Shown one piece after another: positions 19,221 to 63,952 of a DNA stretch of 64,000 nt (within the stretch, counting starts at the first letter, position 1; each line of letters opens with the position of its first letter). The translations under genes and the position numbers were made by a program. Location: contig NZ_JAPWIJ010000001.1 of NCBI RefSeq assembly GCF_027270735.1, positions 310,001 through 374,000 of the forward strand. Direction: 5' to 3'. The DNA is from Rhodococcus ruber. GTDB lineage: Bacteria > Actinomycetota > Actinomycetes > Mycobacteriales > Mycobacteriaceae. The notes under the pieces are model-generated. The model was given only the letters and a program-made list of their open reading frames with translations, was not told the origin of the DNA and searched no databases.

Positions 19221-19314
19221 GACAAAACCGAAGCACTCGATCACGACACGTTCGGTGAGCACCCGTGTGCCGGTCCACCTGTCCTGGACCCGTCTCACAT
19301 TCGGAGAACCCTCC

Positions 19315-20445
19315 ATGCCACCGCTCGTATTCTTGCTCGCCACTGCAGTTTTCGCCCAGGGAACGTCCGAGTTCATGCTCGCCGGCCTGCTCACCGATAT
19401 CGCCACCGACCTGAACACCACGGTTCCCAGTGCGGGGATGCTGACCTCGGCATTCGCCGTCGGTATGGTCGTCGGCGCACCGGTCATGGCCGTTGCGACA
19501 CGTCGGCTACCACCCCGTGCCGCACTTTCCACCTTCTTGGCGATCTTCATCGCTATGCATGTAATCGGCGCAACCACATCCAGTTATCCGGTGCTGTTCG
19601 CCTCTCGGGTGCTGGCCGCCTTCGCCAACGCCGGGTTTCTGGCCCTCACCTTGGCCATGGTCACAGCGCTGGTCACACCCGACCGCCTCTCGCGCGCCAT
19701 CGCCACCATCCTGGCCGGCACCACTTTTGCCTTGGTGGTCGGCGTACCGGCCGGCACGCTGGTGGGGGCACTTCTGGATTGGCGCGCCGCGCTGTGGGGG
19801 GTGGCATTGCTGTCGGTTCCCGCCCTCATCGCCGTGACCGTCGCTGCACCCACCACACAGGACCGGCGATCCGGTGGTTCACTGACTACGGAATTTGCTG
19901 TCTTGCAGCGATATCCCCTGATTCGCATCCTCGCTCTCTGTATTCTCGTCAACGGTGCCACGTTCTGCGCGTTCACATACTTGGCTTCGGTCGTCACCGA
20001 ACGAGCGGAATTGCAGAGTGCGATGGTGCCAGTGGTGCTTGCGCTGTTCGGGATCGGCGCGCTGGGTGGAGTGTGGGCAGCGGGCAGATTCGGTGACCGC
20101 TACGCAACGACGATCGTGTCTGTAGGCTGCGCAGCGCTTCTCGTCGGCTGGTGCCTGTTCGCGCTGCTGTCGCAGTGCCCGGTCGCCGTGTTGGTCTTTG
20201 CCTTCGTGCAGGGCGGACTGTCGTTCGCCCTCGGCAGCACACTGGTGAGCCTGGTGATGCGCAACGCGGCGGGTGCGCCCACGATGTCGGGTTCGTACGC
20301 GACAGCGAGTTTGAACATCGGTGCTGCAGCCGGGCCTGCTCTCGGTGGAGTGGTCTACAGCTCAGCACTCGGACCGATCGGACCACTTGCCGCCAGCGCA
20401 GTCTTGGCCGGTATGGCTCTTGTGGCGTCTGTCCTGTTGACCTGA
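19315..20445 (+). CDS. Chloramphenicol-type MFS exporter (Cmx/CmlR family)
   Basis: A 376-residue, 12-TM major facilitator. The subfamily signatures are FAQGTSEFMLAGLL at the N-terminus, SAFAVGMVVGAPVMAVATRR and, near the C-terminus, GAPTMSGSYATASLNIGAAA. These match Cmx, CmlR and Rhodococcus Cmr chloramphenicol exporters, so drug export by proton antiport is likely; the actual substrate is inferred. The ATG at 19315 (GGAG at -11) fits the family start. An in-frame GTG at 19255 would add 20 residues. A MarR-type gene follows 30 bases downstream. Confidence 0.82.
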   Translation: MPPLVFLLATAVFAQGTSEFMLAGLLTDIATDLNTTVPSAGMLTSAFAVGMVVGAPVMAVATRRLPPRAALSTFLAIFIAMHVIGATTSSYPVLFASRVLAAFANAGFLALTLAMVTALVTPDRLSRAIATILAGTTFALVVGVPAGTLVGALLDWRAALWGVALLSVPALIAVTVAAPTTQDRRSGGSLTTEFAVLQRYPLIRILALCILVNGATFCAFTYLASVVTERAELQSAMVPVVLALFGIGALGGVWAAGRFGDRYATTIVSVGCAALLVGWCLFALLSQCPVAVLVFAFVQGGLSFALGSTLVSLVMRNAAGAPTMSGSYATASLNIGAAAGPALGGVVYSSALGPIGPLAASAVLAGMALVASVLLT

Positions 20446-20474: not shown

Positions 20475-20939
20475 ATGAATACACACGCACCCCTACAACG
20501 ACCACCGATGCAGCCACCCGAGCGACAGCCGATCGGATTCTGGACCGCCCGCGCCGGCGAAGCCATCCGAGCACGTACCCGCGGCGCCCTCCACGACATC
20601 GGTATCACCCAACCCGAATGGTGGCTCCTGCATCAGATCTCGCTGCACCCCACAGGGGCCGACAGGGAAGCGACGATCGAGAAGATCGGCCACAACGACA
20701 CCCCGGAGGCAATCGTCGAGGCCATCGACTCTGCACGGTCCAAAGGTTGGATCGAGGAATCGAATTCACGCGTGACGTTCACCCCGGAAGGTGAAGCACA
20801 ATTCCGACGGGCGTCGGACGTTCAGCAGATGCTGCAGGACGAGCGCATGCAGGGCATCGGTCAGGACGAGTTCGTCACCGCAATTCGAGTGTTGCAGCAG
20901 ACAATCGAGAACGTCGGGGGCGACGCCTGGCACTGGTGA
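20475..20939 (+). CDS. MarR-family transcriptional regulator
   Basis: A 154-residue winged-helix protein: ARTRGALHDIGITQPEWWLL, then a helical recognition region (DTPEAIVEAIDSARSKGWIE) and a short wing (SRVTFTPEGEAQF). The family is recognised from overall order; the HTH is divergent. It follows the exporter on the same strand and may regulate it. Confidence 0.7.
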   Translation: MNTHAPLQRPPMQPPERQPIGFWTARAGEAIRARTRGALHDIGITQPEWWLLHQISLHPTGADREATIEKIGHNDTPEAIVEAIDSARSKGWIEESNSRVTFTPEGEAQFRRASDVQQMLQDERMQGIGQDEFVTAIRVLQQTIENVGGDAWHW

Positions 20940-20989: not shown

Positions 20990-21715
20990 TTACGCATCGT
21001 CCACTGCCGTTCCGACAGCCGTTGCGAAGGCAGCCATGCTCGGGAATCTCATGTCGAAGCTGTACTTCTCCGTGGGCTCCGGAGTTGCGCCCCAACCGGG
21101 TCGGTCGTGACGCCGGTCGATCCACACCGAGGAGATGCCGTGACGCTTGGCCGGAACATGGTCGTGGAACAGACTTTGCGCAACGTGGAGCAGACGCGAC
21201 CTGGGCACGCCGAGGTTGTCGAGAACTCCATCGATTGCGTCGAAGTGGTTGGCGGCCGGCTTGTATGCCCCCACGTCCTCGGCGGTGACGATAGCGTCGA
21301 ACCGAACGCCGAGCCGGCGATTGCTGCCGGCGAAGCCTTCGCGGTGGACATTGGACAGGATGACGAGCTTGTAGTTCTGGGCGAGACTCGCCAACGCCTC
21401 GGCGGAGTCCGCAAATGCAGGCCAGTCCGGTACCGACGATCCCAGCCGGTTCGTCCAGTCCTCCGATACGGGGATTCCCAGGGCGTCACCGGTGCGCACG
21501 AAAGCTTCGGCGAGAATCCCGGGATAGAGCATCGCGGGGAAATCTCGTTGCGCCTGAGACTCGTTCACCCCGAATGCCACGAGCAGTTCATCTCGAGACA
21601 GGGCCGCACCGGACTGCTCCGCCCAGGCACCGAGAACGCTCAGAATCCCGGCCTCCCAGTCGATCAGCGTTCCGTAGCAGTCGAAGCTCAGCACGTCGTA
21701 GTCGGCGAGGTTCAT
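20990..21715 (-). CDS. HAD-superfamily haloacid dehalogenase, type II
   Basis: A 241-residue HAD hydrolase. The nucleophile loop reads FDCYGTLIDWE (Asp11), motif II is VILSNVHREG, motif III is the lysine in AYKPAANHF, and the cap contains AAxS-like LSRDELLVAFG. Type II enzymes hydrolyse L-2-haloacids, but many relatives act on other substrates. It is divergent from the PheRS-like gene, with 195 bases between the starts. Confidence 0.85.
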   Translation of the reverse strand: MNLADYDVLSFDCYGTLIDWEAGILSVLGAWAEQSGAALSRDELLVAFGVNESQAQRDFPAMLYPGILAEAFVRTGDALGIPVSEDWTNRLGSSVPDWPAFADSAEALASLAQNYKLVILSNVHREGFAGSNRRLGVRFDAIVTAEDVGAYKPAANHFDAIDGVLDNLGVPRSRLLHVAQSLFHDHVPAKRHGISSVWIDRRHDRPGWGATPEPTEKYSFDMRFPSMAAFATAVGTAVDDA

Positions 21716-21804: not shown

Positions 21805-21877
21805 CCCTCGACCGGGTATCGGTCGTCGGGTCAGCCCAGTGCACCGCTGAAGTCCTGACGTCCGACTCGGTCGAGGG
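21805..21877 (+). ncRNA. Structured 5' leader of the PheRS-like operon
   Basis: A perfect 10-bp outer stem (CCCTCGACCG at 21805-21814 with CGGTCGAGGG at 21868-21877) encloses a second helix: GTCGG 21825-21829 with CCGAC 21862-21866, continued by TCAG 21831-21834 with CTGA 21855-21858. The apical loop is 20 bases. It ends 33 bases before the ATG. This nesting suggests a cis-regulatory RNA; no T-box or known riboswitch core was recognised. Confidence 0.5.
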
Positions 21878-21910
21878 AATCCCAACCGTCGATCGACAGA
21901 GGACACTCAC

Positions 21911-23077
21911 ATGAAGAGCTATATCTCCAATTCCCAACTGATTCAGAATCTCTCGATTCGCGACCTGACCGACCCGGACCAAGGCGCACACGCGATGCAA
22001 CTCCTGTTGACCGCTGTGGTCGAGAATCTCACACACATGTGGAACACGGACACCGACGTTCTACGTCTCGGTGCCGTTGTACCGGTGCAGGACAACTACG
22101 ACAAGCTCGGCTTCGATGCCGATGCCGTCACCCGCGACCGACGGTATTCGCGCTACCTCGGTCCCAACGTGATGCTGCGCAGTCACACATCCGCATACAT
22201 CCCATGGATCCTCCAGCAGATGGACGACGCATCGGATGTCGATCGACTCGTCGTTCTGCCCGGCCGCGTCTATCGGCGCGATGCCATCGACCGAACGCAT
22301 GTCGGTGCGCCTCATCAAGTCGATCTGTGGCGATTGGTGTCCCGGCCCGACCTCACCGATCAAGACCTGTCGGCCATGATCGAGTCGGTTGTCCGCTCCG
22401 TCCTTCCCGACGCCGAGTGGCGGGCGGTGCCCGCGGACCACCCGTACACCCGGGGTGGCCATCAGATCGACGTGCGCATCGGCGACGCCTGGATGGAGCT
22501 CGCCGAGTGCGGCTCGATCTCGCCACAATTGTTGCAGCGCAGTGGCCTCGACCCGACTCGGTGGTCCGGCCTCGCACTCGGAATGGGGTTGGACCGCGCG
22601 TTGATGCTGCGCAAAGGGATCGACGACATTCGTCTGTTGCGCGCCGAAGATCCTCGAATTCGAAGCCAGATGCTTCACTTGGAACGGTGGCAACCGGTGT
22701 CCTACATGCCGCCTGTTCGGCGTGACATTTCTGTCGTAGTTCACGAGAGCATCGACGGCGAACTCCTCGGTGACGCAATTCGCACCGCATTGGACGGGGA
22801 CGGTGAACTACTCGAATCCGTGGAGCTACTCTCCGTCACAACCTATGACGATCTGCCCGACGCAGCCCGCGTCCGACTCGGTCTCGGTTCCAACCAGGTC
22901 AATGCGCTGATCCGGATCACGCTGCGGCCGATCGGGCGCACTCTCACCGACCGAGAGGCAAACCTGCTGCGCGACAGAGTGTATCGAGCTGTTCACATCG
23001 GTCCTGCATCCGAGCTGATCGACGGTAGAGTTCTTCTTGACGGTCGATCGGCTGACGACGAAAGGCAGAACCCATGA
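21911..23077 (+). CDS. Monomeric phenylalanyl-tRNA synthetase-like ligase
   Basis: A 388-residue class II synthetase-like protein built like mitochondrial PheRS: a PheS-type catalytic core (residues ~30-260) fused to a ferredoxin-fold anticodon-binding-like (FDX-ACB) domain (~266-365). Motifs are intact: RSHTS (90-94), motif 2 GRVYRRDAIDRTH with HQVD (118-138), MELAECG (195-201) and motif 3 GMGLDR (224-229). The N-terminal tRNA-binding coiled coil of bacterial PheS is absent, and the FHQVEG of true PheS is changed to PHQVDLW. It should activate an amino or related acid with ATP; whether it charges tRNA is unknown. I recall an NCBI family label 'PheS-related mystery ligase' that may apply, but cannot check. 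Its stop overlaps the next ORF (ATGA). Confidence 0.85.
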   Translation: MKSYISNSQLIQNLSIRDLTDPDQGAHAMQLLLTAVVENLTHMWNTDTDVLRLGAVVPVQDNYDKLGFDADAVTRDRRYSRYLGPNVMLRSHTSAYIPWILQQMDDASDVDRLVVLPGRVYRRDAIDRTHVGAPHQVDLWRLVSRPDLTDQDLSAMIESVVRSVLPDAEWRAVPADHPYTRGGHQIDVRIGDAWMELAECGSISPQLLQRSGLDPTRWSGLALGMGLDRALMLRKGIDDIRLLRAEDPRIRSQMLHLERWQPVSYMPPVRRDISVVVHESIDGELLGDAIRTALDGDGELLESVELLSVTTYDDLPDAARVRLGLGSNQVNALIRITLRPIGRTLTDREANLLRDRVYRAVHIGPASELIDGRVLLDGRSADDERQNP

Positions 23078-23256
23078 ACATGGGCAAGGACGCCGAGGCA
23101 CGCAACGTCGTCGAGGCGCTGAGTGTGATCGACAAGCCCTGGCAACCGCGCCGACTCGCCGGCATCAACGACTACGACGTCGTACTCGGGCCCGGTGACA
23201 CTGCCGATACCGGCGATGCAGGCGGTGACAGGACCTCACAGGTCGAAGAGTTGTGA
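23074..23256 (+). CDS. 60-residue protein coupled to the PheRS-like ligase
   Basis: A short ORF that starts inside the stop of the ligase gene (ATGA) and ends inside the start of the GNAT gene (GTGA). Residues 19-37 (IDKPWQPRRLAGINDYDVV) look like the N-terminal segment of small cupin proteins, but the cupin barrel is missing and is not found in other frames. The tail is acidic and Gly/Asp/Thr-rich, ending in VEEL. It could be a substrate or carrier peptide of the ligase, or a truncated cupin kept for coupling. Confidence 0.6.
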   Translation: MNMGKDAEARNVVEALSVIDKPWQPRRLAGINDYDVVLGPGDTADTGDAGGDRTSQVEEL

Positions 23257-23732
23257 CGGTGGTCCTGCTGCGGCCGGCTGTTCGGTCCGACGCCGAGTTC
23301 CTGTTCTCGATGGCGTCGGACGTCGAGGTAGTTCGATGGGTTGGCGACGGAAACCCCTGGACCAAGACGTATTTCGATCAGCGACTTGCGCTCGCACTGA
23401 GCGCGACGGGCAGCCGCGATCCGGACGTGCAGAGGTGGTTCGTCGGAACTACCGAGGAATCGCTGCGCGTGGGGTTGCTCAGCATCATTCGTCGATCCGA
23501 CCACCTGGAGGTCGGCTATTGGGTACATCCGGACCATTGGGGTCTCGGCTACGCGGGCGAACTCCTCGTTCACGCGCAAGAGCATGCCTCTGGTTTACCG
23601 CTGGCAGCGCAGGTGTATCGGGCGAACGTTGCCTCTCGTCGGGTTCTCGAGCGGGCCGGGTTCGCACTCGTCGACGATGGGGATCCCATGACCTATCGGC
23701 GTCGGCCAGCGCACTGGCCTACCACGTCCTGA
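23253..23732 (+). CDS. GNAT acetyltransferase coupled to the PheRS-like operon
   Basis: A 159-residue RimJ/RimL-type GNAT protein. Strand beta4 and the acetyl-CoA loop are seen in EVGYWVHPDHWGLGYAGELL, followed by AQVYRANVASRRVLERAGF. The GTG start overlaps the stop of the 60-residue ORF (GTGA), making a tightly coupled three-gene operon. It could acetylate the ligase product or the small protein; this is inference. The 3' end overlaps the convergent aldo/keto reductase gene by 14 bases. Confidence 0.8.
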   Translation: MTVVLLRPAVRSDAEFLFSMASDVEVVRWVGDGNPWTKTYFDQRLALALSATGSRDPDVQRWFVGTTEESLRVGLLSIIRRSDHLEVGYWVHPDHWGLGYAGELLVHAQEHASGLPLAAQVYRANVASRRVLERAGFALVDDGDPMTYRRRPAHWPTTS

Positions 23733-37223: not shown

Positions 37224-37254
37224 CGAAGGGCTTCCTGCTTGGGGCTCGTGTCGC

Positions 37255-37375
37255 GGAGCCGCGGGTGGGGTGACTCACGACGTCCGAGCATTCGGACTTC
37301 GAGCTCTCACCCGTCACCGTTGCGCGCCAGCTCCGGAATTGCACCGGATTCCCTCGTTCGTCGCGTGCTGACCTT
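37255..37375 (-). promoter_or_regulatory. Cobalamin riboswitch
   Basis: Read on the minus strand, 37353-37314 carries the conserved core GGGAATCCGGTGCAATTCCG, then GAGCTGGCGCGCAACGGTGA. This is the AdoCbl riboswitch pattern GGGAA-GGTG-AATCC-CCCGCAAC. Downstream, GTCCGAATGCTCGGAC (37297-37282) corresponds to the B12-box arm. It ends about 30 bases before the btuF start and fits translational repression by cobalamin. Confidence 0.85.
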
Positions 37376-63866: not shown

Positions 63867-63952
63867 TGGTGGGCGGAGGGGGACTTGAACCCCCACGTCC
63901 CTAAGGACACTGGCACCTGAAGCCAGCGCGTCTGCCATTCCGCCACCCGCCC
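63867..63952 (-). tRNA. tRNA-Leu (anticodon CAG)
   Basis: An 86-base type II tRNA with encoded CCA. The acceptor GGGCGGG pairs with TCCGCCC; the D-arm starts TGGCGGAATGGCAGACGCG; the anticodon stem-loop is CTGGC-TTCAGGT-GCCAG (anticodon CAG, reading CUG); a long variable arm (TCCTTAGGGA) and a T-arm GGGGGTTCAAGTCCCCC follow. It is followed by a strong terminator. Confidence 0.97.

Follow-up and report, generated by a model that had tools for sequence, protein, structure and literature searches.

Introduction

The closest described relatives of the protein considered here are the phenylalanyl-tRNA synthetases (PheRS). The bacterial enzyme pairs an alpha chain (PheS) with a beta chain (PheT), and the mitochondrial enzyme (FARS2 type, model TIGR00469) is, according to an excerpt of a 2010 review (PMC3275996), alone among known synthetases in combining a monomeric state with a class II catalytic module. 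Second synthetases borne on plasmids or in gene clusters, such as IleRS2, SerRS2 and TrpRS2, are accessory genes of a comparable kind. SrmL (NF051887) is a named but unexplained family: the name of the model gives no substrate, and no published account of the family or its substrate turned up in literature searches. Here we describe the srmL gene on a contig of Rhodococcus ruber, a soil-type actinobacterium (NZ_JAPWIJ010000001.1, positions 310,001 to 374,000; the 64,000-nucleotide stretch is called the window below), together with the 60-residue open reading frame (ORF) and the GNAT acetyltransferase gene that follow it. The family was already catalogued without a function; new are the findings that the 60-residue ORF is a dead cupin and that the three-gene arrangement is unstable, together with the invariant changes in the substrate pocket and the plasmid contexts.

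The three ORFs lie on the plus strand at 21911-23077 (388 aa), 23074-23256 (60 aa) and 23253-23732 (159 aa), the first two overlapping by ATGA (23074-23077) and the last two by GTGA (23253-23256). A first-pass annotation of the same DNA had described this coupling correctly but had let the cassette begin at 21805, where no gene starts. Genomes (G), contigs (C) and fetched loci (L) are cited below by our own handles.

Family assignment, domains and fold

The srmL product (21911..23077, ATG start) reaches 507.3 bits on the SrmL model, whose cut-off is 300, with residues 16-363 aligned to positions 1-348 of 349; the match is full length and nothing sets the window protein apart from the family. 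Neither PheS cut-off is reached, the scores being 101.8 bits on the bacterial model TIGR00468 (cut-off 237 bits) and 130.1 bits on the mitochondrial model TIGR00469 (cut-off 258 bits); the core fragment of the genome's own PheS scores 272 bits on TIGR00468. The SrmL core is about equidistant from the two (mitochondrial 112.6, bacterial 102.7), and these core scores do not favour a derivation of mitochondrial PheRS from SrmL.

A PheS-type catalytic core at residues 51-253 (22061..22669, plus strand), delimited by the PF01409 match (113.5 bits) and by alignments, is followed by an FDX-ACB (B8-like anticodon-binding) domain at residues 264-361 (22700..22993, plus strand), which scores 30.5 bits, slightly below the gathering score of 31.1. 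The order of the Pfam domains agrees with the single chain of mitochondrial-type PheRS, and a fold alignment places residues 13-368 of the SrmL model on 39-415 of human mitochondrial PheRS and extends through the FDX-ACB domain. The domain composition proposed at first pass is thereby confirmed, as is the missing N-terminal coiled coil, the long arm of the genome's own PheS having no counterpart in SrmL in the alignment. There is no PheT beside SrmL, and the normal pair was located on another contig (G000:C6), where pheT adjoins the true pheS.

With bacterial PheRS the protein shares the PF01409 core, the His-Gln motif and the class II arginines, but it differs in having neither a PheT partner nor the N-terminal arm, in the replaced residues around the phenylalanine ring and in carrying the FDX-ACB domain on the catalytic chain. 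Unlike the FARS2-type enzyme it is bacterial and accessory, falls below the curated cut-off and has a changed pocket. Judged by its sequence, SrmL is a free-standing single-chain class II ligase, apparently descended from the PheRS alpha core after its linkage to a domain of the B8/FDX-ACB type.

The gene is under purifying selection, with a ratio of nonsynonymous to synonymous substitution rates (dN/dS) of 0.147 against G007 and 0.265 against G023. The FDX-ACB domain is present in 49 of 49 aligned SrmLs, with R271, R322 and N331 among its invariant residues, and it is conserved nearly as well as the core (mean identity 50% versus 57% in 1002 pairs, G023 and pairs with at least 75% core identity being excluded).

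Substrate pocket

The same 49 SrmLs were aligned with the genome's own PheS; G135 (read in two frames), the truncated L050 and a partial copy from a diphtheria plasmid were excluded, and the pairing of positions is taken from sequence alignments. His135-Gln136, R122 and R229 are invariant in all 49, as are Thr180 and Ala222; from the alignment to PheS we take the two arginines to be those of class II motifs 2 and 3. The pocket motifs of the core are PHQVDLW (134-140), HPYT (177-180), E199 and GLALGMGLDR (220-229). The altered FHQVEG site pointed out earlier is therefore real and reads PHQVDLW in the window: its Phe is Pro134 in 49/49, the following Glu is Asp138 in 48/49, and Trp140 stands in 49/49. 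The Gln and Glu of this motif in PheS are presumably Gln218 and Glu220. Glu199 replaces a pocket Gly of PheS in every copy, and the positions of Thermus Phe258 and Phe260, which belong to the Phe-Pro-Phe substrate-ring motif of PheS, are occupied by His177 and Tyr179 throughout.

Phe258 and Phe260 make edge-to-face contacts with the substrate ring, as described in the excerpt of PMC3275996. Phe216 is named as the adenine-stacking residue of PheRS in a passage of PMC8555319, and our alignment matches it to Pro134 of SrmL. As these changes are invariant across the SrmLs, a substrate other than plain phenylalanine is likely.

The cupin remnant and the GNAT

The 60-residue ORF (23074..23256, plus strand) matches no Pfam or NCBIfam family, Cupin_2 (PF07883) included. 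In tblastn and DNA alignments its whole length nevertheless matches intact cupins of 124 residues, and the intact orthologue scores 60.2 bits on PF07883. Two in-frame gaps have removed 64 codons (192 nt) from its middle, including the His-rich cupin core. On this alignment evidence it is a dead cupin and not a partner peptide, and the end-to-end match rules out the idea of a small peptide substrate. Intact cupins are strongly constrained, with dN/dS values of 0.05-0.09 in five of six comparisons and 0.21 in the sixth, generally tighter than those of SrmL or of the GNAT (0.187-0.324 in six comparisons with the window).

The GNAT gene (23253..23732, plus strand, GTG start) encodes 159 residues and scores 75.9 bits on PF13302. 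Its GTGA overlap with the cupin is kept in all six aligned cupin copies, that of the window and five intact ones, so the coupling predates the deletion. We read the GNAT of the window as what remains of an ancient pairing with the cupin. srmL and the cupin do not always overlap; in G007 the ligase ends before the cupin. Neither the dead cupin nor the GNAT appears to be needed by the ligase. The case carries a lesson: a tempting small ORF between two genes can be a deletion remnant that is visible only against relatives.

Synteny within the genus

Seventeen regions of the genus were compared; G006, G020 and G030 are without the mraY-like frame, and the counts rest on the other 14 syntenic loci. 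SrmL is intact in three of these (the window, G007 and G023, the last with a gap in the FDX-ACB domain), reduced to a C-terminal scrap of 26-62 residues in four (G012, G013, G024, G035) and not found in seven. The cupin is intact or nearly so in nine loci, a remnant in three (the window, G013, G024) and not found in two, and the GNAT is intact in 13, G018 being the exception. Where SrmL is broken or not found (11 loci), the GNAT is still intact in ten and the cupin in seven. All three genes are full length or nearly so only in G007 and in G023, the latter with the gap just mentioned. The first-pass annotation had proposed a search for a conserved neighbourhood of ligase, ORF of about 60 residues and GNAT, and had named its absence from relatives as a refutation of its reading; the three genes are not kept together in these loci, and the ligase is the least stable of them.

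Between the window and G023 the synonymous divergence (dS) of SrmL is 0.319, the lowest of all compared genes (MFS, MarR, HAD, GNAT and XRE 0.75-0.94; AraC 0.493; mraY-like 0.431), which suggests that SrmL was exchanged between species and kept.

Distribution and mobility

Full-length SrmL was found in 5 of the 37 genus genomes examined, the window's included. Above the family cut-off it occurs in 23 of 397 genomes of the order and, in a sample of the phylum, in 2 of 396; both counts include the genome of the window. A search of genome contigs gave 20 SrmL loci, mostly from Arthrobacter and its kin, and 3 of 72,556 plasmid records matched at E 1e-30. On Glutamicibacter pGnB68 the gene adjoins a Cmx-family exporter (NF033135, 484.7 bits) and lies 8 kb from tet(33), one Azotobacter plasmid carries it, and on a Corynebacterium diphtheriae plasmid an incomplete copy is flanked by erm(X) and tet(65). 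In the SrmL tree the copies of G016, G027 and pGnB68 form one clade (100/100) that spans genera. SrmL thus occurs on plasmids, with mixing between genera.

The plasmid-like contig C2 of G016 (L086:7740-8861, L108:185-5965) carries its own SrmL, 57% identical to that of the window, with a second GAPDH-like gene on one side and an MFS exporter on the other. At a distance of about 15-20 kb is a row of P450, isopentenyltransferase and LOG-like genes which, judged by eye, resembles the cytokinin (fas) operon of Rhodococcus fascians. In G027 (L085:7674-13250) an MFS gene, an aminotransferase and, by eye, a fragment like a nonribosomal peptide synthetase condensation domain lie upstream of SrmL, with transposase genes on the other side. 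The SrmL of G135 (L093:7614-8727) is split over two frames, by a frameshift or an assembly error. A 37%-identical SrmL (L097:8001-9080) stands in a 634-kb uncultured phage genome, the sole phage record with a match over at least 80% of the query; an IMG/VR search for close relatives gave four pattern matches, none of them confirmed.

Neighbouring genes

No fixed partner emerged from the genes near SrmL in 25 contexts, the window's included, where no Pfam family exceeds 4 of 94 genes. This survey is weak: gene calls were crude, and the near genes comprise 91 of the 100 listed plus three added by hand, which include the GNATs of L036 and L037. MFS_1 (PF07690) and Acetyltransf_3 (PF13302) lead the near-gene list with 4/94 each, and the near PF13302 GNATs are, by our reading, those of the window, L036, L037 and L142. 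Among the 129 far genes used (of 153), neither family is among the 25 listed, so each occurs at most twice. Searched with tblastn, 54 other fetched loci show this cupin and this GNAT alongside an SrmL gene or scrap in syntenic loci of the genus (L083, L084, L089, L091) and nowhere else. A scan of 50 loci for a linked tRNA gene found two tRNAs, both more than 4 kb from srmL. On the G016 contig an XRE-type regulator (by eye), a protein with a YbaK-like aminoacyl-tRNA editing domain (PF04073) and a cupin stand in a row (L086:2513-4046), about 4-5 kb from SrmL.

Three genes upstream of srmL the window carries a Cmx/CmrA-family MFS exporter (19255..20445, plus strand, the family match beginning at 19315; NF033135, 446.3 bits, cut-off 400). 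The exporter is intact in 5 of the 14 syntenic loci, namely all three with intact SrmL and 2 of the 11 with SrmL broken or not found (G018 and the G016 chromosome). A one-sided Fisher test gives about 0.027, worked by hand and uncorrected for shared ancestry. Outside the syntenic loci a close Cmx (49% identical) is paired with SrmL only on pGnB68. Its survival in loci without intact SrmL excludes it as an obligatory partner, and the association remains a hint. A substrate derived from chloramphenicol, a speculative idea prompted by the Cmx and HAD neighbours, was set aside.

Proposed function

Our preferred reading, to which we give a probability of roughly 0.4, is that SrmL is a stand-alone, PheRS-derived ligase that makes the adenylate of an amino acid, probably an aromatic one other than phenylalanine, and passes it to RNA as an accessory trait. 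The amino acid would probably be aromatic but of greater polarity than phenylalanine, the aminoacyl group would pass from the adenylate to a tRNA or another RNA held by the FDX-ACB domain, and SrmL would act alone. A more specific and rather doubtful version makes it a mobile single-chain bacterial synthetase of new amino-acid specificity, which charges tRNA or another RNA with a polar aromatic or non-protein amino acid for a purpose outside normal translation, possibly protection against an amino-acid antimetabolite, and which is spread by plasmids that also bear exporters and resistance genes. Several observations weigh against the preferred reading. The SrmL model is of middling confidence (mean pLDDT, the predicted local distance difference test, of 73), with residues 119-133 beside the pocket motif below 50. 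The FDX-ACB score lies just under the Pfam threshold, RNA binding by this domain is putative, and the G023 copy is without a stretch of the domain, yet its dN/dS stays below 0.3. The non-phenylalanine substrate is read from residues alone; according to the excerpt of PMC3275996, human cytosolic PheRS has Asn and Tyr at the two Phe positions, plus another Phe, and still charges phenylalanine, so His and Tyr do not exclude it. In Paeniglutamicibacter sulfureus, of another order, a GNAT 38% identical to that of the window (L036:9285-9752) immediately follows a 58%-identical SrmL, and on the plasmid-like contig of G016 a cupin 71% identical to the intact cupin of the locus lies about 5 kb from SrmL. 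Both cases speak against complete independence from such genes, and some link of SrmL with cupins or GNATs may exist. The repeated breakage or loss of SrmL in the genus, finally, makes its benefit conditional at best.

The data do not firmly separate this reading from two others. SrmL could be a back-up mitochondrial-type PheRS that charges tRNA-Phe when the normal enzyme is inhibited or poisoned, much as plasmid IleRS2 acts against mupirocin. The two-module layout is identical to that of the monomeric mitochondrial enzyme, His135, Gln136, Thr180, Ala222 and both catalytic arginines are invariant, the gene is carried by plasmids that also bear resistance genes and in two settings lies near Cmx-type exporters, and antibiotic-resistant second synthetases are documented in passages of PMC9437257. 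The replacement of both ring residues, of the residue matched to Phe216 and of the pocket Gly in 49/49 copies is, however, extensive for a copy that is no more than resistant, and the protein reaches neither PheS cut-off. We consider a back-up role unlikely, though a serious competitor. The rebuilt pocket would also suit a tRNA-independent ligase that couples an amino acid to some small molecule or to a protein, in the manner of EpmA, AsnA or the amino acid:carrier protein ligases, with the FDX-ACB domain reused for docking. Its sub-threshold score, its partial deletion in G023 and the PF13302 GNATs among the near genes (4/94, with the L036 and L037 rows added by hand) fit such a role, and class II synthetase relatives that do such work are known (passages of PMC9437257). 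The domain is nevertheless kept in all 49 copies with its invariant residues, there is no fixed substrate gene or pathway partner, and EpmA has no tRNA-binding part. Carrier-protein ligases of this kind have likewise lost theirs (same passages); a tRNA-free role seems to us improbable.

Much less can be said for the first-pass proposal that the ligase, the 60-residue protein and the GNAT are translated together and work in a single pathway, peptide-modifying or biosynthetic. The overlaps are real, that between cupin and GNAT is old, and the L036 adjacency and the G016 cupin could be read as traces of a connection, but the small ORF is a broken cupin, the GNAT outlasts SrmL in 10 of 11 loci, and among the 54 other fetched loci the three genes meet only in the syntenic loci of the genus. 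We find the proposal scarcely credible. What stands of the earlier interpretation is that SrmL is not an ordinary PheRS, as the failed PheS cut-offs, the passed SrmL cut-off and the coexisting normal pheST indicate; self-resistance in the broad sense of an accessory trait of mobile DNA may also apply. It is very unlikely that the locus is merely decaying and SrmL a dispensable relic: four remnants and seven absences among 14 loci and a cupin already broken in the window would fit decay, but the window's SrmL is of full length and retains the residues that are invariant in the family, its dN/dS is 0.147-0.265, and the low dS to G023 suggests a gene exchanged and kept. SrmL appears to be a bacterial version of the single-chain layout that moves horizontally and has an altered substrate pocket. 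As an accessory gene that occurs on plasmids alongside resistance genes it is comparable to the second synthetases, but IleRS2 keeps its amino-acid specificity (passage of PMC9437257) whereas the SrmL pocket is rebuilt. Its substrate, once found, would reveal either a new aminoacyl product in bacterial biology or a transferable resistance trait.

Other features of the locus

Between the Cmx exporter and srmL lie a small regulator and a HAD-family hydrolase. The regulator (20475..20939, plus strand) is perhaps MarR/SlyA-like, from a weak NF002926 match (E 0.0012, far below the cut-off) and with no Pfam match at E 0.001; it was found in all 14 syntenic loci. The hydrolase (20990..21715, minus strand) is divergent from srmL and matches PF13419 and, at 124.0 bits slightly below the cut-off of 125.4, the haloacid dehalogenase type II model TIGR01428. 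A search for T-box or other RNA control gave no Rfam match at the gathering score beside srmL in the window, where two matches lie elsewhere, or in seven other loci. On the minus strand of the window are a cobalamin riboswitch aptamer (37229-37353) and a tRNA-Leu(CAG) gene (63867-63952).
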